A stretch of DNA of 64,000 bases, from the NCBI GenBank assembly GCA_030248295.1, contig JASANH010001438.1:434001-498000 (forward strand), written 5' to 3'. The DNA comes from Mesodorylaimus sp. YZB2_4 (lineage: Eukaryota > Nematoda > Enoplea > Dorylaimida > Dorylaimidae). How positions within the stretch are numbered: position 1 is the first letter of the stretch; each line of letters starts with the position of its first letter. This document shows, piece after piece, positions 12,289 through 39,000 of the stretch. The translations under genes and the position numbers were made by a program. Below the pieces are notes generated by a model, which saw nothing but the letters and a program-made list of their open reading frames with translations, was not told the DNA's origin and did not search any database.

Positions 12289-15200
12289 TTATATCGTCAA
12301 TATCGATCTCTCAATACCAATTTTGGCCAACGCATTTTCCAAAGCGCATAAATCTTGTTTATCTTTAAATGTATACACCCAATTGCCGATTAAATTAGCA
12401 TCGAATCGGTGCACTCCGTCGTTGATATCAGTTCTAAAACTCCAAACTAAGCAATCCGAGGGTCCAATATCAAATAGCAGTCGGCGATTGAAAGCCAGTC
12501 GCAACAACTGCACGATCACTCTGCCATGTTTCGACATTGGCAAATAGACGGTGCAGCAAGTTTGAGGAAAGGGGCGGCCGGGTGATGGATGCAGAATGGA
12601 TTGAATACCAGACGGAATTTGGAACGTGCAACGTATGCAACCTCGAGTTTGGACATCGCCTTTGATAACCAGCACTTGCATGGTGCCATGCGGCTGGCAG
12701 CTGAATGTATCTTCGACGAGGGTTGTTGAGAGAGGAGAAATGGAGGAGCAAGAGGGCTTGGATGAGGTTGGAGATGAAGTCGAATCTGAGGAGATGGTTG
12801 AGTTCGGATGGGATTTGGCAAAGAGTTCGACAGTGCTTGACTAAAACGATAGAGATGTGGATAGATGGCCCAAAGATAACGTTAGTCAGGCATGAAGATC
12901 TGACGCAGGTGAGGGGGAGACCCACATTTTACCAGAGGATCTAAAGTAGACAGAATTTAGAAACCTTGGGTTCATGGAAGCGCCTGCGACTATCTGCACC
13001 TTTTTGCTTCTGAAAGCAATACCATGCAGCATTTAGGCATTTGTGGGTTGTATAACTGAGGAGGCATATACAATTTCAATTTTCCCGGAGGAATAACTTT
13101 GGGCCCATTAAGTGCACAAATAGTGAGTTCGGTCCAAAAATTAGTGAGATTAGAGTCTGCAGCTCAGTCAGTTTTGGCTCGCGGATTCTCAACTGGCTTT
13201 TGGATACCAGCGGGATGGGTGCTTTAAAGGGTATTGCGGTGTCTTACCAGAGCACCCGCTTAGGGTCATTGGGGGTACTCACACAACTTTCAACATCGCT
13301 CACACTGCAGCATGCCGTCTTCCCTCAAGTATAATGGTACCAAGTATGGCGAGACTAACGATAGTCAAGCCTCGAAAGTGATTACCTCCAACTCTGCTTG
13401 GAACACTGCCAGCACATGTGATGCCGACGGTCGCTGCTGGCGATCAAAATGCACACTTCGCCTAACGACGTCCCTAATTGGTAGCGGGCAGTCGCATTCG
13501 TCCAGTGCAACGGCGCCTGGTCCCCATTCCACTTCGTTATCAAAGGACACATCAGAGTTGGGTCTCTGATTCACCAATACCAACTTGTACAGAATCTGAA
13601 AGAGCAGCAGGTTATTAATCCACACCTCGTCACCTACCTGCCTGCCTGTGGTACGAGCACGCTAAGGCAAGAGCTGATTTGCACAAATGGGCAGGTATAT
13701 ACTGCGCTATTTCGAGTGATACTACTTTACGAGTATGGTGCGCACGTTTTCATACCCCAGTAGGACCCTGAGCACCAAGAATAGTGGCAAGGCTTACCTG
13801 GCAATCTTCCAGTCTTCTCTGGTCGCCCGGGTTGTGCCAAAAGTACTTGTTTGTGAACAGTTCGCATAAAGTGACGCCTAACGAGTACACATCCGCCTTC
13901 TGGGGGTTCCGTTTGGACTCAGCGAATTCGGGTGGATAATACATGAAAGTGCCAACTACGCTAGTTTCTTCCGTGATCGTCATCGTGGTTTTAATTTTAG
14001 CTAGTCCAAAATCGCACAGCTTTGCAAGCAGACGGTCGTCGATTGTCTTGTGAAGCTGAAATGGTAGAAGGAGCCTAGCTCGCTGGCATACAGACGCCTG
14101 TCAGTGCAGACAAGGCGTTGCCTTCCAGAACACACATATTGATGAGTAATCAACGCTCCATTGGTCGGTTGTAGGTCTCATCCGCTTTTAAATATTTTGT
14201 CCTTAAGTAAAGGTGTGGCTATTGGTAGTCTTATCGTTGATAATCATTTTATGTTAGCGTGTATTTTGAATGTGCGTATTTGATAATGACTGGGACGGGT
14301 AGAGGGTCACCAGTCTAAGCTAATTCTCATCGAAATCTGGATTTCAACTGTTCTAGTCATGGCTTCGGTCCTTGACCGTGTGAGTCTATCCAGTTAGGGG
14401 CCCAATGTTGGGCCGAGTCCCTCGTTGTGGTGACCCAAAGGCTAAGAAGACCTCGGTAACAGGAGCGAGATCCTGGTGCCGTCGAGACTTCTACCGACTG
14501 GTGGACAGTGGAAGTCCACAGATTGTGGGCATGTAAGGGTGTGGCTATTCGAATTTGGTTAGCCCCTCTCTTTCTTTTTCGATCTGGTGACCCAGACGGC
14601 CTTGCTGGTGAGTCAGACACTTCCTTCCTGCCCGTTTCTTGTTCGTCTGATTGGTTGTTGTGCCTTGCCCGTTAGTGCCTTGTTGTCTGTCGAGGTTTCG
14701 GCAGTCAGTCTGTATTGTGTGAGTGTCCCGTGCGGTTGTAGAAGTAAAGTCTCGTTGATAAGTCTTACGTTTGCTATCGCACAGCACCTAGCTTGACTCG
14801 CTAGGTTGCCACACCAATGCCATCTTTTGGCCAAGTGGATAGTCGAATAGGGCATGCAATAGAGTATCAGTTTACCTCAATGGCAGCTGCCAGCATCTAC
14901 CCAACAGCTCAAAAAGCATGTCAGACTCACAAAGTCAGCCTCACGTTGCAGCCTATCCCATCTGGGAGTTTTTCATGTTTTCGGATTTATAGTGTGTCTG
15001 CCCCACTGACGATGAGTGCGCTCCTGCTACTTTCAGTCGCAGTAAAGCTTTAACTTGTGACCTAACAATTAATCCATCCCCCATCCCAACTCGAAAACTG
15101 CTCGGTCACTCACCAATATATTCTCAGGTTTAATATCCTTATGCGTAATCTTAGCCCGATCGTGCAAGTACTCTAATGCCATCCAGCAATGCACTCCAAT

Positions 15201-15584
15201 CTCCAACTTCTGCACTGCAGCCAACTGTTCACAGCCGGTACAATACGGCCTCAACGATCCTCCATTCAGTAACTCAGTCACGATCCAAATCTCTCCAATT
15301 TCCAAATTATCCACAACTCCCAAAATCGATAAAACATACGGATGATCAACCGACCTAAAACACTCCATTTCTCCACTCCGACCTTGAATAGTAGCAATGA
15401 CTCACCTCAAAATTTCAACTTCTTTTCTTAAACTCTTTTCATTATTTACATTAGCTGGTAACTTTTTCAAAGCCACTTTTTGATTAGATTTTTTTAAAGT
15501 AGCTTCATAAACTTTACCAAAAGCGCCTTGATTTAGGAATCGTTCTTGGAAAAAATCCAAAGGCCTCATTACAACGTTACACAT
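12289..15584 (-). CDS. Protein kinase fused to a Deltex C-terminal domain
   Basis: Five minus-strand exons (15584-15406, 15354-15114, 14055-13798, 13595-13386, 12840-12289) join with consistent phase to give 479 residues. Residues ~10-290 are a protein kinase domain: glycine loop LNQGAFGKVY, Lys40 in VALKK, the Glu of RKEVEIL, HKD at 131-133 (HKDIKPEN), DFG at 155-157, and PPE in place of APE. It looks TKL/RIPK-like. A Ser/Pro-rich linker (~297-340) leads to a Deltex C-terminal (DTC) fold, ~341-479: QPHGTM, IPSGIQSILHPSPGRPF, VYLP, RRLLFDIG and CLVWSFRTD. In known Deltex ligases this fold sits after a RING finger and binds ADP-ribose; no RING is present here. The first glycine of the loop is Asn and HRD is HKD. 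An upstream exon cannot be excluded. Confidence 0.85.
14540..14813 (+). mobile_element. Possible solo LTR in a kinase-gene intron
   Basis: A 274-base block begins TGTGGC and ends GCCACA, a perfect 6-base inverted terminus of the TG...CA type. It contains an AGTAAAGTCTC phrase near the 3' part, as in an R/U5 region. A related start (TGTGGCTATTGG) occurs at 14214. I found no matching target-site duplication and no internal retrotransposon genes, so this is tentative. It lies between kinase exons 2 and 3. Confidence 0.35.
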
Positions 15585-15984: not shown

Positions 15985-16235
15985 TCTGGCCAGTTAGCAA
16001 TCAAACCTCCCAAGCAAGGCAGCGTCCCTGTGTGCGCCTTCACTACTGGACACCAGACTCCTTGGACGATGGCGGATGGGCTGTGCCCCCTGTCGGTGTT
16101 CGAGAACCGAACTGTCCTTGTCTGGATTCCGCCCATTTACTTGCAGCACGCATTATCTGACGTCCGTCAGTAGGAATCGTACCCTGGACGACCCCAGCCA
16201 CTTGCTGCAAGGCAATATGGGTTTTTCAAAATTTT
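15985..16235 (-). repeat. SINE family A, degraded copy
   Basis: On the minus strand this matches the 5' portion of the element at 50569-51022. The box B region has decayed (AGGGTACGATTCC in place of the consensus) and the copy stops near a phrase matching CATCGTCCAAGGAGTC. It lies directly beside a better-preserved copy, giving a tandem pair. Confidence 0.6.
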
Positions 16236-16672
16236 TGTGGGTTGGGCCCCGCTCGGCCCAGGTCCCCACGGCACTTCCAACCCGCTTTGCCTATAGCTAG
16301 CTAGCAGTCATGTCATGATAAGCGAGGCCATGAGGTGACCGGCACACACAGCAGCGTCCCTCGGTGCGTCTCCACTAGGAGCACCTCCACGCCAGGGCAT
16401 CGTGGACTGGACACCGACTTCCTCGGACAATGGCGGGTTGGCTGTGAGTGTACCCTGCCAGTGTTCGACAGCCGAGACTGTATCCTCGTTTGGCTTCCGT
16501 CTCTCCACTCAGAGAGACTGACCCACGGCCTGGCGTGCAAGGTCAGCGAGGGTTTATGGTTCGCAAACCGACCTCCATCACCGGGGATCGAACCCGGGAC
16601 GAGTCCAGCCACTCGCTCCCAAGCAATACCGAGAGACAAATGCCGACCCGCTGCACCACCGCGGCCGCAAAA
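16236..16672 (-). repeat. SINE family A, near-complete copy
   Basis: Read on the minus strand it starts GCGGCCGCGGTGGTGCAGC and has box B in CCGGGTTCGATCCCCGG. It then follows the whole length of the 50569-51022 copy to the end phrase GTGCCGGTCACCTCATGGCC and GCTTATCATGACATG. A tRNA-derived head with an unrelated body is typical of a SINE transcribed by RNA polymerase III. Confidence 0.75.
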
Positions 16673-16983
16673 GCAATATGGGTTGACGAATGTCCAACCG
16701 CGGCCCCATGTGGCCCAAGATGGCCAAAACTGTCCCTACAAGACTCTTCCACGCAGTACATACTTTCTTCACACTCGATCCGCACTCTATCAGTGAGCCA
16801 TTATAGCAAGGTATACAATATCCAAGAATTCTAGGACCCGCTAAAGGCAGATAACACTCACAAGGGTCAATTCACTCCGTTAGAACACGAAGGCGAAAAA
16901 AAGTTAGAACTATAACTCACAAATAAAGACGACTTTTACACAAAAAAGCGTTACACGCCTTCGTATTGCCTCGTGCAAGCATT

Positions 16984-19900
16984 TCACCACAAATGCTCGT
17001 ACATACGACTAATCTCTTGCTTGAACCGTTCTTTGACTGCAGCTCGTTTCGTTTTCATAGTCGGCGTCAACAGATCATTTTCGATGCTGAATGGTTCTGG
17101 GAACAAATAAATATCTTTGACTTGTTCGAACGATTGCAACCCGCCTTTCTGGCCTTGAGCTTTCATATCGTCCATAATCAATCTTTTTATCTTCTAAAAA
17201 CGAGCCAGAATCACAGCCTTATTATCCCTTCAGTATTCAAATACATACCTCATCCTTGCAAAGTTCTTGCATGTTAACATTCAATTTCAAACTCTTCTTG
17301 GCATGCGGCACCAAAACTTCAGCATCCGGAGCCACAATAGCTACGAGACAAGATTTCAAACTTTCGCCGTGAACGAACACTTGGCCAACAAATTTGCTTC
17401 GAGCATAAACATTTTCGATTTTCTCCGGAGCTATGTATTCACCCTGCAAAGCCCACGTCAATCCGCTTGTATACCAGCAAATACAAATTCTCAATCAACC
17501 CACATACCTGTGCCAATTTGAAAATATGCTTCTTCCTGTCAATAATCTTCAATGTTCCCGTTTCCGTCCAAAGCCCGATATCGCCCGTATGAAGCCAGCC
17601 GTTCGAATCGATCGTTTCGGCCGTTTTCTCCGGGTCCTTGTAATATCCTTTAAAGACGTTGTGCCCTTTTATGCACACTTCGCCTTTATTTTCCTTCGCA
17701 AAATAATTCATATCCGGCACATCGACCAGTTTGATTTGGCAACACGGAGTCGGTGGCCCAACGTGGCCTGAAACGTAACTTGTATCATTATAGGCTGTAC
17801 GACCAAAGCTGACTGATTGGACTTTCGAGGGTATCGCAATACCCGCGAAATTCAAAATTTGTTAGTTAAGATTTGGGCGCCAAATACTAATTAAAAAACT
17901 TCGATCCCTTACCAGGAATATGATCGCCCTCCATTCCCACCGTGCATGCTGCCACAGCTTCAGTTTGCCCGTATCCTTCCAACACGACACATCCCATAGC
18001 AGCTCGAATAAAGGTCAATATCTCTGGGGCCAACGGAGCGCTACCAGTAATCATAAGACGAATACGACCACCCATTCCTTCTCGAATGCGCTTGAATACC
18101 ACTTTGTCCCAAATCGTGTCATTTCGAACCACACCCCTGAAAACTATCCATCAATCTCCACCTTTTTAAAATGTCATAAAATCTTACCGATTCAAATCTT
18201 CTAATTTAGCCTGCGTGGCCCTCTCGACCAAGTACTTCTTCAATTTGCTATGCTGCGTTTCTTGCATGACCTTATCATAGATACGATTCAATACTCGAGG
18301 GACGACGGCGAACAAGGTCGGACGCAGTGTTTGTAAATCGTCCGGCAAGTTTTTGATGTCGCCGCTGTAAAAGCCGACTCGGCCACCAACCGAAAATACC
18401 ATGGCTTCGATAATACGTTCGAACATATGAGCCAATGGTAGAAAGGACAAGAGCACATCGGAAGACTGCAGGGCCATGTACTTGACAACGGCCAGCGACG
18501 TACAATCCGAGACAACATTGCCGTGCGTCAACATGACCCCCTTCGGATTGCCCGTCGTCCCGCTAGTATATGATATGGTGGCCAAATCATCCGGGCTCGG
18601 CGGTTGAGCTGCTGGCGTCCGACCAACTGCCGATGAGCCAAGCTTCTCCAATTCGCTGAACATAATCACTTCGACACCAGTCTTTTTCGCCAATTCAGTC
18701 AATGCCGGATCACGCGCGTCCATTAGAACAATTATGCTCAAGCTTGGACACGAATCGCGTTTTTCCAACAATTCGATGCCTTTCTTCGCTTTATCCACCA
18801 CTACCAAGGTCATATTGGCTAGAAAAAACAGTTTAGATCAAAAGAATACACAGAAAAAACAAATTTACTTTGGTTTATAATAAACGAGCACGTATCGGGA
18901 CCCAACGTATCGTACAATGGCACGATAACCATCGAGTAGAAATAGCACGCTTGTTCCGCAATAATCCACTAAAAGAAGAAACAGTTGCGGACTTAAGTTC
19001 TACCCTGTCTGCCAGCCATGCCATGGGCCACCCACTCTGATGAGCCATGAGGTTGTGCCTGTTTCCCCCTCTTCCTCCACCTCTATTCTCATTATTCCTA
19101 TGCCTTTATTTTTCAGTCTCGCCCCTGGAGTGCACGAATTTGCTTAGGCATCGAGTAAGCCATGCTCATTGAGAATTCCATATGCCATTTTCTGGTTGGT
19201 CAATTTTTTGAATGTGCAGAAAGAAACACGATTTTCCCGCCAAACATTTGAATTTCACAAATTGCGGGAACCTTGCCTAGGCATGTACATACAGGTCAAT
19301 AAGATGCACAGTCACCAACATCGGCGAAGGGGGTATGTTTTCACGAGGGCCTATGCAACGTACTTGACGAGCAAAACAAACTTTTCAGTGTCTAGATTTT
19401 GAGGGCCCCAAAATCATCAAAAACCCCTGGATCTCAACAAACATTTTGGACACTGCCTTGGATTTTCAAATGGGTCAGTTCTGGAAATCTAAATTCACTA
19501 CCCACTCGTACATGCCCGTTGATGACTATGCATCATTGTGACTGGCCGTGTACATGCAAAGGAACCGATCTGTCTAATGCTAATGCGGCGAGTTTTCCCG
19601 CCATTTTCGAAATACAAATTTTTGACGAGAAACTTGAACTTTTTTGGTAAATTTCAAGGAATAGAGTTGTTAGATACTTGGAATGCACTATAGTACCAGG
19701 GGCCCAGCCTCCTTTTCTGGAGTACCATGGCCAACGAAGGCCCTACAGTGAACAGTGGACAAAGGCACACGCATCTCGAATAGGCCACATACCTCTGGTC
19801 GATTTTGAGCATATATTCCAACGAAGGTTTCTTGGCCCGGCTTCAATCCCTTCTCCACGCATCCCCGAGCCAGGTATTCGCTTCTTCGAATAACATCAGC

Positions 19901-25494: not shown

Positions 25495-25558
25495 TCTTTT
25501 TCGCCGTCTAATCGAATTCTTCCATTTATTTCGTTTTCATTCCTTTTTCTTTGAGTTT

Positions 25559-25560
25559 AG
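25559..25560 (+). promoter_or_regulatory. Possible trans-splice/5'UTR acceptor before TAF5-like gene
   Basis: A T-rich tract ending CTTTGAGTTTAG lies 32 bases upstream of the TAF5-like ATG and 65 bases after the stop of the CS-domain gene. It looks like a splice acceptor with no obvious donor between the two genes. In animals that use spliced leaders this is where an operon's downstream gene would be trans-spliced. This is inference only. Confidence 0.25.
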
Positions 25561-25592
25561 CCCCAATAACTTCAAATCCACTGCTTTCGGTA

Positions 25593-27419
25593 ATGACGTT
25601 TCATCCTTTCGTTCTCGCCTACGGCCGACGTCGAGGCTACTCCATGGCCGATCTGAACCGCTTATTATCTCAAGAATCGCAACTATTTGATTCTAGTGCT
25701 AGTCAAGCGGCCAGTGTTAACAATTCGCCCACCGATTTTTTACTAGCGTCCGATTTGACCTTAAATTTAAGTGAGCCATCCAATTATTTAAAGGAACTCC
25801 ATCTTTTCGCTTCATTTTATAATTCATTACCAACTGCCATTCGACGACGGCTTCGATCGCACGCTGACGGAATCATTGCATATTTCTCTCAGAAACTTTC
25901 CACGTCTGGTCAATCGACCGATATTCTGTCGTCAGCCGTTAAAGAATTCCATTTCCCCATCGAAAACGATTCGATGTTGGAGCAAGAATACTCTTTATCG
26001 ATCAGTGATCAATATCAGGATATCGATCTGGTGATGAAGAAATTCCTCGTTGAATTTCGAACGCCATTAATTTGCGAGTACTTCCGGTCGGAAACCGCAC
26101 TTTTGAATGGTAAGGAGGCATCGACTAAAAGTGAGAATGACAATGCGCCAGTTCTGGTAGCGAAGGGAAAGAAGGATGAAGACTCTGAAAACGAGGATGA
26201 CGATGGGGAGGATCCATTTTGGTGGAGGAGCGGGGTTAAATCTACAGAAGATACAGACAGTGAAGTAACGAAATCGATCGATTTGGAGTCGACGCTGGAT
26301 GAAATGCGGGAAATCTGTTCAAAACTGTCCAGCAAAGAAGCGATCGATAACGGGTCTTTCCCGTATTCAGTAATGCTATACACTTTCTCGTCGAATCACC
26401 CTGGGCCAACTCGAGGACGTGGTCATCGATCTGCGGCCGTATGTGCCGAGCTGACATCCGATGGACGTTTGGCCTGTTTTGGTTGTGATAACGAGTCGTC
26501 GATTCGATGTTTCCCGATACGTCATTCCTCCCATTCAGCGTCACCGATGGCATCGTCGGCAGATAAACCATTTATTCTACGCCCTGGATCAACATCGGGT
26601 ATTGTGTATCGATTGGGAATAATAGAGAATTCAATCGATAAATCATTCTTGCTTTCTACATCCGACGATCCTTGCCGTCCGATCAGTCTGTTCGATTTGA
26701 CCTCGAGGATGAAGGTGTACGAATATTGTGGTCACCAATGGCCAGTGTGGGCGTTGGACGTGACAGAACAAGCTGGTGGTTTGTTCGTGACTGGCTCCTA
26801 CGATCGGACGGCTCGATTGTTCTCGTTGGATCGGAAAGATCCAATGCGTGTGTTCGTTGGGCACGAGTCGAGTGTGGATTGCGTCCAGTTTGTTCCAAGT
26901 CTTCAAGATCAAGAAATGAGCGAGGACGGATATCCGCCCTTCGTCGCTACTGCCTCGTCGGACAATACAGTTCGAGTTTGGTCATTAACGGATGCGATCG
27001 CTGTGCGTGTATTCCATGGCATGAAGGTACGAATGAGGGTGCTTTTTGCTTCATAACTAACGCTCGACATATTTTAGGGTTGGCCAACTGCACTGGCGTA
27101 CGCATCGGTTAGTGGCTCTGGTGACAAGTTGTTGGCCTGCGCCACCACGGAAGGAAAGATATTTGTGTGGGAGTTGAACTCTGGTCGAGTATATCAAATC
27201 TTGGAGGGCGTGTTGGCGAATGATGTGCAGTTTAGCCCCGATGGACAATATTTGGCGGCTGGCGGAGATGGCGGATGGTTAAAGATATATCAGTTGTCGA
27301 ATACAGGTAGTCAATTTGTTGAAATGCAAATCTCAGATAATCTACTTTTTCATAATACAGAGGCAAAATTTTTGAAAATTAAGTTTATATATGACGAATT
27401 AGTTTGCTTGGCGGCGTAA
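25593..27419 (+). CDS. TAF5-like WD40 protein (TFIID/SAGA subunit)
   Basis: Three exons, 25593-27026, 27078-27306 and 27361-27419, are in phase and encode 573 residues. TAF5 scaffolds the general transcription factor TFIID in the nucleus; its paralogue serves SAGA. The N-terminus has a LisH-like VLAYGRRRGYSMADLNRLL. An alpha-helical middle follows, with an acidic EDSENEDDDGED linker. The C-terminal half is a WD40 propeller: YCGHQWPVWALDV, TGSYDRTARLFSLD, PMRVFVGHESSVDCVQF, TASSDNTVRVW, TTEGKIFVWEL, and an ending FLKIKFIYDELVCLAA that matches the way TAF5 closes its propeller. It is shorter than vertebrate TAF5 (~800) and close to TAF5L (~590), so which paralogue it is remains open. The ATG is the first in frame. 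Confidence 0.75.
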
Positions 27420-33099: not shown

Positions 33100-36000
33100 C
33101 TAACGTCGACTGTTATCCTGCTCCAATTCGATGATGTTATAACACTGCTGGGGCAGACTATTTCGAATCTTCTCCACGTTCTCCACTTCTTGTCTCAACT
33201 TGTCGATATCCGACTGGAACTGAGAAATACGTTTCTGCTGCTCCAACTGTTTCTCCTTCATTGTGCCCACTTCTTTCTCTAATCTGACATCGTCCAAGAT
33301 CGCCGCCGCTTTCGCTAACTCCTCATCCAATTTATCCAAATCTTCATCCTTCACGCCGTCCAAGTTACCTGAAAAACGTCAGTAGTTAAATCTACCCCGA
33401 GACAACCATCCTGATCTGCACTTACGCAATTCGTCTAAGATCTTGTTCAACGTGTCCTTCGCCTCATCGACCGCCTGGTACGTTTTGTTCGCTGTCAGTT
33501 CCGCCTGACTGGCTTGATCCAGGGCCTGGAAAGACCAACCCAAGTTTACATCTCCAATGCACACTTGAACCACAGGATATAAAAATGGTTTGGACAAAGA
33601 AAAACATCCAAAAACCTGGCCTTACCTCCTTCGTCTTCCGCTTATCATCGGCAGCCAAATCCTTGTAATTGGCCAACGTGTTGGTTGCCTTTGTCGCATC
33701 TTCTTTCACATTCTCTGCCTTATCTTTCGTTTCCCTCGCGACAGTTTTAGTAGCTGCAATTTGCTGACGTACTTCCATTGCAGCCTGAATGTAACCCCCG
33801 AATCAAAATCGCCTCGCGACTCCTTAATTTATTCCCTTACTTTTGACGCTTCCTCGGCAACGAGTTGGGCCTGCTCCGCTGTTCTAGCAGCGTTCTCTGC
33901 TCCTATCTGAGCATTACCCAAAGCAGCTTCGGCCGTCTTCGTGCGATTCTCGGCATCTTCAATCAGCCGACGGGTCTCTGGGACGAGTTTCCACGCCTCC
34001 ATTGCTTCCGCCTTACTACGCTGCACCAAATCATCAAATTCTAAAAAAACCGAATCAATCTTATTACTTCACCCAGCGACTAAACATAGCCTCATCAAGC
34101 CGCCATGACCAAATCAATAGCGCGCACCTTCAAGAGTCCTCAACGTGTTGTTAGCCTCCCTCAACGTATTCTCGGCCAATTCGACCGCATTGCGTGCGCG
34201 CACACGCGCAGCGTCCACGTCCGCCAACAGCGATGCTGCAATTTGACGCTGGCCTTCTGCGCGTTTCAAATCATACTCAGCTTCTGCCTTGATGCGCTCC
34301 GACTCATCAACGATCGGCTTGTTTTCAGTGGCCAAATTCTCCGCCTCGTCTTTAGCCCCTTTGGCCTAGGATGGATAAATAGAGAGATTATTACACCTGA
34401 GGGGCAGATTGTTTTCTAAAAACTAGGAGCTTACGTCCTGCGAAATTTCCGCAGCGTCAGTCGAAATCTTCTTTGTGTCCACGTCAGGCAATTTCAACGA
34501 ATCGACTGTGTTCAGAATCTCCGCAGTTTCTTTGAACACTTTATCCGCTCGTTCCTTTTGTTCCTTCGCCATGGCTTCGGTTTGATTCAACAGCGCTTGG
34601 GCCACTTGAAACCTAAAACACAGATCAACTCAGCGTTTACTGCGCCTGCTGCATAGTCATCGACTTACTCTTGCTTCAGTCGATTGATTTCCTGACTCGT
34701 CGCCTCCCCGCCATACACAGCTTCGTCAGCTCCTTTCTGAGCCTGCAAGGACGTGTTCAGTGCTTTCTTGGCATTCTCCTCGATCTTCGATGAATCGTTC
34801 TTATGCCTAAATCAGACAACAAAATACATTCTATAAATCCATCTAAAAAACTTGAATTACTTTTCGGCCAATCGGCGGGCTTCAGCCGCAATACTCGTCA
34901 TCTGTTCCGACTGACGCCCGTATTTACTGGCTGCCAGTTTCGCTTTCTCCCACGCATCTCGTCCTTCGGTCTCCAAAAAGTAAATAGCATCCCGCAGCTG
35001 TTGCGTAGCATGGTCTGAAAAACCCAACTCCATTAGGCTCTGCACTATGCCACAAATCAATGCCAGCTTACCTCTCACTGCCTCCCATCTATCCAACGCA
35101 GATTTCGTCCGATCGGCGCTGGCATTAGCCGCACGTAATACGCCATCCGCATCCCGGAGGACATCACCTGCCATTTTCAAGTCGTCTCGTAGTTGTCGTA
35201 TTTGACTGACCAAGGCAGTGTCATCGCCAGCTAAAAGCCAAAACCAGTCTTCGAAGCCATGTTATCATTTCAAAAACATGCCAACTCACCCAAGCTCATT
35301 TTGACGGACCCCGCCAAGTCCTTTACAGCTTGCATAACGTTCTTCAATTTATTATCGAAGTTAGTATCATTGACCACAGTCGGATTCTCGAGAATATCTT
35401 GCAGCAATGTTCGCAGCCGCTGCAACTTCTCTCGGTGATCATTGACTCGTTTTTTGATCAATCCGTAGCACGCGTCGCATTCGATACATCCGGCATCCAA
35501 GTTGTACATGTTCTCTACGCACCGGTCGCATGTTCGACCTTCCACATTCGGTCGGCATTGACATTGACCACTCACCAAGTCGCACTGACGCGACGTCGAG
35601 CCACGGCCGTAGCAGTCGCACGCGCTGCACCCTACAAACAAAACCCGAGTCCATCTTCAACTCACACCCATATCATACCATCCCACCTTTGGCACTGAAT
35701 CCGAAATGCAAGGCCTGACACTGATCGCATCGTCGTCCAGTTATTCCTGGCTTGCACAAACACTGGCCAGTGATAACGTCGCACGTTGTATTCAAGGATC
35801 CCAATGGATCGCAATTGCACGAATGACATCCCGAGCCCGAAGTAATGTTATAATAGCCAGGTTCGCACAAATCGCATTGCCGTCCAGTAACGTGAGGCAA
35901 GCACGTACACTGTCCAGACGTCTGCTCGCATTCCAACAGTTTGTAATCACCACTCGGTTTTCGAGTGCCCGGCGCATAGCACATGCACGCTAGAATCAGA

Positions 36001-39000
36001 ATCCTCATTACCGATCCGCCTGATTCAAACCAAAACGGGTTATACTCACGTTTGCAATCCCCTTTCGGTTCCAGTAACGCGTCACCATAGAATCCTGGCA
36101 AGCATTTCTCGCAATGCGATCCATGCGTATTATGAATACATTTCTTGCACTCGCCCGTCACTCTAAAACAACAGACCTCGTTTAGAACCATGTTCAACAA
36201 ATTGTCAATACTCCTTACGTGTGACAATTTCCAACAGAATTCGGATCGATATTGCCACTACAATCGCACGGTTTGCACGATACGTCGTTCGAAGGATCGC
36301 CGAAATAACCATCCGTGCACTGATCGCAATATCGGCCAGTGTACCCGGACGGACATTCCGTACAGAACGGTTCGCCAGTGACGATCGTACACCGACCACC
36401 CTGAGGACACGGGCACGGCTTACAATCATCGGGCGTTCCTTTCAATGCATTTCCATAATAGCCATCGGCGCAGCGATCGCAATTCGCACCAGTCGTATGA
36501 TGTTCGCAGATACAAGCACCTGTCCAGACAATCTATATTCTCCACTGTACAACAGCAGCCACTGAATCCTTACCAGATTCCGAATCGCAAATATCCGCAT
36601 GTCCATTGCATTGACAAGCTACGCACCTCGCGAAAGGACCGCCGTAACGAGGCTCACGTCGATAACCAGGAGCGCACGATTCGCAATTCTGTCCCACATA
36701 CTCGGCTGGGCACGTGCAAGATTCGACCCACTTAGCGTAACCATTGCCATTGCCATTCTCACTACCGGCATGATGCGTAGGAGTCGAACTAGCTGATCCG
36801 AGAGAAACGTCGTCCAAGAAACCAACATCTGCAACAAATGACAGATTAAAAATTCAACGTTCCCTTCACCAATTCCCCTTGACTTACCCCCAGGACTAAA
36901 AGTGCCACGAATTTTTAAAGCGGTCAAATTGGACAAAATGCTCATAAAATCTAAGCTCGATAATCTCGGCGTCCATTGAAACTGCGGATCCTCGTGCAAA
37001 CGATACCGATACACCTAAAACAACCGAAATGCACTTCTTTCATCATCATGACTGGCAACACCGTCTCACCTGCTCATAGGGTCCAGGAGGTGGATTATTC
37101 TGAGCAAATATGGGAACAGAAACCGATCGACCATTCGCTCCTTGCAAAACGATATCCGTCACCGAAGCACGCGCATTTTGTTCGATAACACGCAGACGGA
37201 ATGTCAAAAATTGATTGTACGACGATCTTTGATTGCCCAAATATTTATCTAAAAAAACCGATTTCAAACATCAATAAATCCCATTTCCCCACAATTTATA
37301 CCCGGTGCTACGAAAAATGTCGGCCCCGAATATTCTGGTACAAAAATATGCCGATCACGTTCGCTGTATTGTACATCTACTTTTCGTTGACCGTACGCTT
37401 CGGCTTTCCAATTTTCCGATCCTAAAATAACATAAATTGTTCCAATTTTTTCCCAACACAATACGACACTTGTTTTTTAACGCTTCGTTTACCTCGTCCA
37501 AAATCGGATGTCAAATTAGTTTTGTAGTAACCAGGCGCCGTGTCGCATACCGAAGCGTGTCCGTAGCAAAAACACGGCGTACATCCGAATTCATTCGTCA
37601 AATCCAGATTGAAATAACCAGGTTTACACCTAAACGCAAAAATTGAAAATATGTATCGCGTTTTCTTGTCTATGACTAGTCCGAAAATAAGGCCTCCATA
37701 AAAATAGACACTAAAGGATCTCCGCACTCGTACCTGTCACATCGCTGTCCCTCAACATTCGTCTTACACGCGCAATGGCCCGTATCCGGTCGGCAATTCG
37801 GCTGGTTGTTATGACTGCCAGCTGTAATGCAGCCGCAGTGCCTACAAGCCAGAAAATCAGCATGAAAACAGTCTTATCACTACTTAGCATTTCCTCAGAA
37901 ATCTCTCATATTTCCACTTCCTTACTTGCATCCCTGCGCTGAAAATTCGTAAAAGCCAGGCAAGCATCTATCGCAATATTGTCCACCCACGCCCGGTTTA
38001 CAAGGGCATTGGCCTTGGTCGTTGCATTGCAATGAAAGAGAACCTGAAAGTCAATAAAATACCTCTGATATTCTTCTCCCTTCCACCCTTATTGACACTT
38101 ACCAATGTCATTGCAATTGCATGCCGTACAAACGTATTCGCCCGGTCGACGCCAATGATTCTCCAAACAATGTTCGCAATGAGGACCCCTCGTATTGCCT
38201 TGACAATCGATGCAATGACCACCACTTCCGGTCCTCTGGTACATATCGGCATCGAAATAGCATCGACTCGAAAGATTGTTGCAATCGCACGCTACAAAAT
38301 TTTGTCAACATAGTAAAGTCAACAAAAAATAGTCAACTTTTCACAATATTCAATGTCCATACCTTTGCATTCATTCGCGTCTTCCGCCGTGGCCGCTTTC
38401 CATGGACGATCATTGAAAAATGGCATACATTGTTGACAATCCTCGCCCATGGTATTGTGCTCGCAACGGCACACCAATCGTTCGGTGGCCCCTTGTCCCG
38501 TACTCTTCACACATTCACTCGCGTGCCCATTGCACTTACATCTATACACACATACATTCCAAAGTTACACTCAATTCTCACTTATCCTTATTCTTGAGTC
38601 CAAAAAAAACCAACTAGAGCGTGAATAATCCATTCCTTATTTACCTTCCACCAACAGCAAAGTCCGAAATGGCGTAATAATACGATCGCAATACTTTGTC
38701 ATCGCGAAATACTTCGTCGCCGAACGTGTTCAAACGATTCAATACGATCCTGATCGACACCGCCGTCACCCAATCCTGCAAAAAACCAATTCTTTCCTTT
38801 TTCACAACTACAGATTACAAACCTCTTCCTCCCTAACCCTCCAATCCACCAAAAAACGGTTCCTTTTGCGCACAATTAAACACCTTTACCCTACTCCTAT
38901 CCTAAAGCACAGCACGCTACAAGTCACGCGCTTTGTTTTCTTTCTCGTCCACGTCTCAGCTCTATATTCATTCCGTAAACACGGGGTGCCCCATTAGAAA

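Follow-up and report, generated by a model that had tools for sequence, protein, structure and literature searches.

A predicted kinase gene ending in a Deltex C-terminal domain in a Mesodorylaimus nematode: a candidate ADP-ribose-guided kinase

The kinase exons and the DTC exon

The window, meaning the whole stretch of 64,000 nt of Mesodorylaimus sp. YZB2_4 that was analysed (contig JASANH010001438.1, positions 434,001-498,000 of the forward strand; coordinates below count from the window start), carries on its minus strand a predicted gene in which a protein kinase domain is followed by a Deltex C-terminal (DTC) domain. When spliced, five minus-strand exons give a single open reading frame (ORF) of 479 codons and a stop, and the four introns are each GT-AG with phases 2, 0, 0 and 0. 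Exon 1 (15584-15406, 179 nt) holds the ATG at 15584, the glycine-rich loop, the VALK lysine K40 and the donor GTGAGT, and exon 2 (15354-15114, 241 nt) continues from the kinase N-lobe through the HKD loop (D133) and NIL. Exon 3 (14055-13798, 258 nt) encodes DFG (D155), PPE (residues 181-183) and the C-lobe, and the kinase domain ends in exon 4 (13595-13386, 210 nt). Intron 4 (13385-12841, 545 nt) separates the kinase exons from exon 5 (12840-12289), which has no intron inside it and encodes a linker (residues 297-344) that is half Ser/Thr, the DTC domain and the stop. A preliminary description of this DNA had placed the same five exons in phase, with correct coordinates, and the phase-0 donor GAG|GTAATC and acceptor CGTTTTAG|TCA that it gave for the joining intron were found again here.

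The kinase domain was matched by Pfam Pkinase at residues 15-288 of the spliced product with 155.7 bits against a cut-off of 31.7 (E 2e-45), and the Pfam model for tyrosine kinases and their like overlaps this match. Lys40 of VALK, Asp133 of HKD and Asp155 of DFG are all kept, and because of this the kinase half should be catalytically active. Its earlier assignment as like the tyrosine kinase-like (TKL) group agrees with the best PDB matches, which are plant receptor-like kinases, STE20 kinases standing lower down; this agreement is one of nearest matches only.

The DTC domain (PF18102) was matched at residues 345-472 of the product with 62.6 bits against a cut-off of 25 (E 5.7e-17), as the preliminary description had foreseen, and exon 5 by itself scored 65.5 bits. 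In a six-frame search of the 145 Mb genome the profile was covered at positions 4-133 of 133 within one stop-free exon, and the match is far beyond chance. Comparison of exon 5 with the PDB by phmmer returned three matches at E ≤ 0.001, to DTX3L (5.4e-14), DTX2 and DTX1, and the core motifs SGIQ, HPSPGRPF, YLP, LLRLAF, RRLLF and IGPS are recognisable. An initial fold of exon 5 from its sequence alone was uninformative (mean predicted local distance difference test, pLDDT, 34). Modelled residues 46-177 of exon 5 aligned structurally with DTX3L 607-740, which indicates a DTC fold in three dimensions, and towards the C-terminus this superposition agrees in register with the sequence alignments described below. 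Pfam, phmmer against the PDB and the structural alignment thus ruled out that the DTC assignment is weak or due to chance.

Kinase models and DTC were the only Pfam matches in the product, with no RING family at E ≤ 0.001. Four RING-like patterns gave zero matches in the minus-strand frames between 16966 and 11000, which ruled out a concealed RING on that strand in any single frame. The proposed architecture of kinase and DTC without a RING is therefore supported as far as DNA goes.

Residues of the ADP-ribose pocket

In the papers cited here and below, DTC domains are described as lying behind a RING and helping to place ubiquitin on ADP-ribose. DTX2 His582 contacts the ADP-ribose hydroxyls and DTX2 Glu608 is required for ubiquitin transfer without direct contact (Zhu et al., PMC7615817). 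The counterparts in DTX3L are His707, Tyr719 and Glu733, Tyr719 standing for DTX2 His594, and this last position matters for the interaction with ADP-ribose (Dearlove et al., PMC11460948).

His440, Tyr452 and Ala466 of the window protein sit at the positions of DTX3L His707, Tyr719 and Glu733 in the phmmer alignment with DTX3L. The same register was repeated in all six MAFFT settings and in a profile alignment, the profile being built from the 39 other rows, and BLASTP with shark DTX3 agreed. These 39 rows comprise DTX1, DTX2, DTX3L, 35 proteins chosen among 120 listed, and C60, an ordinary RING-DTC gene of the same genome; the DTC domains on contigs C26 and C43 were left out. The first position was His in 38 rows and Ser in one, the aromatic position was His (14), Phe (14) or Tyr (11), and the third was Glu in 34, Asp in four and Lys in one. 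The catalytic His-Glu pair (DTX2 H582/E608, DTX3L H707/E733) is broken in the window protein, where the Glu is replaced by A466.

The predicted protein shares with the RING-DTC ligases DTX1, DTX2, DTX3, DTX3L and DTX4 the DTC fold, its core motifs and, in most alignments, the pocket His and aromatic residue, but differs from them in having no RING that could be found, Ala for the catalytic Glu and a kinase domain in front. Pocket residues apparently kept, the transfer Glu lost and the RING absent form the pattern expected of a reader without ligase function.

Relatives of the two halves and neighbouring features

Among the 1067 contigs of the genome, the nearest relatives of the kinase were found on C487, at two copies on C26 and at two on C12. 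The C487 paralogue is 54% and 47% identical to the window kinase in two pieces and has, by eye, three introns at the positions of those between the window kinase exons, including those after ILR and NIL, although GTTGTC, the third donor of C487, is unusual. A paralogue therefore backs the kinase exons of the gene model. C487 differs from the window gene in reaching a stop soon past the kinase domain, at a locus without a DTC match, and a kinase without a DTC may well be the ancestral form. The C26 kinases are 38-43% identical in the matched pieces, and these genes carry no DTC. One of them has upstream of its kinase a CARD match that only just passes the cut-off of 23.9 bits (24.0 bits, E 3.9e-5), a layout that we take to be RIPK2-like. 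The sequences searched in front of the second C26 kinase and of one C12 kinase gave no Pfam CARD match. These genes form a small family at C26:192-196 kb and C12:724-744 kb.

The profile search found DTC at six places with eight matches, namely C60, the window, two on C43 and two on C26. C60, spliced by eye and compared without its N-terminal part, has a RING (zf-RING_2, E 7.9e-12) and all three active-site residues. It is 39.7% identical to the window DTC over 68 residues, and the C-termini are alike, GIDRSMLQ-stop in C60 and GIERSILTI-stop in the window. Two introns lie inside the C60 DTC by eye, whereas that of the window has none. In the genes on C43 and C26 the DTC is preceded by Cys-rich sequence that falls below every RING cut-off. 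Those on C26 (674-677 kb and 863-865 kb) lie in two stretches that share 97% identity across 4.6 kb and read IPHKT for IHHKT, by eye placing Pro at the position of the pocket His. The two frames on C43 (70.8-71.8 kb and 205-206.4 kb) encode, by eye, near-equal proteins from DNA 89% identical over 1.5 kb, and their ending VLRSFGIE seemingly places Val at the catalytic Glu position.

The single DTC exon, set against the two introns of canonical C60, makes retroposition possible, and the Deltex-like C-terminus with its stop fits a Deltex 3' end captured as a new last exon. We infer that the 3'-terminal part of a Deltex gene, perhaps as a retrocopy, landed with its own stop codon behind a kinase gene and would there have been taken up as the last exon.

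The same pair of domains was sought elsewhere with a protein search that admits targets of 0.55-1.75 times the query length sharing exact words, so that a diverged or longer kinase-DTC protein might be missed. None of 89 candidate relatives of the window DTC region and none of 29 for exon 5 alone reached E ≤ 0.001. A canonical DTC query returned 832 proteins, and none of the best 120 of these lists PF00069 or PF07714. No kinase-DTC fusion appeared among the papers listed by literature searches, a weak negative since subscription papers were mostly outside coverage, and neither Deltex nor DTC occurs in the main text of PMC4177888. What appears new is that two known domains are combined, one of which has apparently lost a function.

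Upstream of the kinase gene lies the 3' part of an AMP-binding enzyme gene (16966-18837, minus strand; AMP-binding E 1.2e-38), which we take to be acyl-CoA synthetase-like and whose C-terminal domain scored 24.2 bits, slightly below the cut-off. Just upstream of the kinase gene a dispersed repeat of about 450 bases (16222-16668) was found in at least 39 other places at 82-87% identity, 40 of 3963 candidates having been scored. By eye it contains GGTTCGATCCC, which we presume to be tRNA-promoter-like, and the repeat looks like a short interspersed nuclear element (SINE). Elsewhere in the window, coding matches were obtained for a WD40 frame (25512-27053, plus strand) and for laminin-type EGF repeats (35676-36257, minus strand), which, like the CARD match, point to an animal genome. 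Genome-wide there were 81 Peptidase_C1 matches, and all five of the cathepsin-like active-site stretches inspected for silicatein have the Cys.

Proposed function and alternative explanations

A single gene encoding a kinase with a C-terminal DTC that reads ADP-ribose, or a related nucleotide, is given slightly better than an even chance. Its two parts differ in strength: that the kinase-DTC fusion exists is judged quite probable, and that the DTC is a reader, given the fusion, reasonably probable. The DTC would bind ADP-ribosylated proteins and so bring the kinase to them, or, alternatively, binding of the ligand to the DTC might regulate the kinase. The preliminary description also raised the possibility that phosphorylation gates the DTC. 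A further step, held tentatively and at somewhat less than even confidence, is that such a kinase converts ADP-ribosylation into phosphorylation as a relay within one polypeptide, a ligase module having become a pure reader by loss of the RING and the Glu.

Several observations on the pocket weigh against a reader. In the phmmer alignments with DTX2 and DTX1, two of the three, Val439 pairs with the first of the two His in HHKT and His440 with the second, and the DTX1 alignment places Asn449 opposite the equivalent of H594. HHKT has become HRFD and GYPD has become TFKD, the TTG loop is altered, and the loop that holds His440 is rearranged in the model with low confidence (mean pLDDT 55 over residues 141-150 of exon 5). 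Active-site residues also seem to drift in this genome, since C26 appears to lack the His and C43 the Glu. His707, Tyr719 and Glu733 are all called known ADP-ribose coordinators (PMC11460948), and mutants of the E608R/E733R type are in one place termed ADPr-binding deficient (PMC13061329), so that binding might be weaker without the Glu. The published statements conflict on whether Glu loss spares ADP-ribose binding. The earlier proposal that this protein recruits a kinase, not a ubiquitin ligase, to ADP-ribosylated targets thus stands in part: it is favoured by His440 and Tyr452 at the pocket and by Ala466 for Glu in most alignments, and is weakened by the shift to Val439, the remodelled loop and the papers that tie the Glu to binding.

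The foremost alternative, considered rather unlikely, accepts the fusion and supposes that the DTC no longer reads ADP-ribose and serves in docking or regulation, for instance in dimerisation or in the binding of Deltex or PARP partners. It would account for the changed motifs, the poorly modelled His loop and the His shifted by one, and the C26 paralogues with Pro at the His position illustrate that DTC domains here do lose pocket residues; against it, every MAFFT setting and the profile alignment place His and Tyr in the pocket, with Ala as the Glu replacement.

The second alternative concerns the junction. Exons 4 and 5 are predicted from the DNA to share one mRNA, and since the searches found no relative with this pair of domains, conservation cannot vouch for the fusion. 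The joining donor lacks the +5 G and is therefore rather weak; of five GTs around the end of exon 4, GTAA occurs solely at 13385, in phase 0. Without splicing there, the kinase ORF (13365-13661) ends six codons past the donor, and retention of intron 4 would yield a 302-residue kinase resembling the apparently kinase-only C487. The weak donor and the product of intron retention are counted against the fusion, and with them goes the possibility, judged quite improbable, of two transcription units. One would be a kinase gene ending in intron 4, the other a neighbouring DTC gene, or an alternatively spliced exon, that starts from an unseen first exon. One plausible mini exon from ATG to donor (13032-13000, with the phase-0 donor AAG|GTGCAG) was indeed present among 12 ATG-to-GT phase-0 readings in intron 4, the C487 stop lies shortly after its kinase domain, and published 'novel' kinase architectures have proved to be gene-model artefacts (PMC2823696). 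Set against this, none of six types of poly(A)-signal hexamer was found in the 545 nt of the intron, and the first in-frame ATG of exon 5 falls within the DTC, with none ahead of the domain. The phase also matches, and a clean acceptor lies exactly at the start of the exon 5 frame, which is open for 183 codons and limited upstream by the TAG within that acceptor, so that it is unreadable from acceptors farther upstream.

That exon 5 is merely the decaying remnant of a Deltex retrocopy adjoining the kinase gene, as its lack of introns, its divergence from C60 and the lost catalytic Glu could suggest, is very improbable given an open domain frame that covers nearly the whole Pfam profile and retains recognisable core motifs.

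An ADP-ribose-guided kinase therefore remains the best reading of this gene, one that depends on residues in a remodelled loop and on the predicted junction. If it is true, the DTC domain would be separable from ubiquitin transfer and usable as a plain reader, the gene would exemplify in nature how ADP-ribosylation can cross-talk with phosphorylation, and the DTC would offer a ready-made domain to steer other enzymes to ADP-ribosylated sites.
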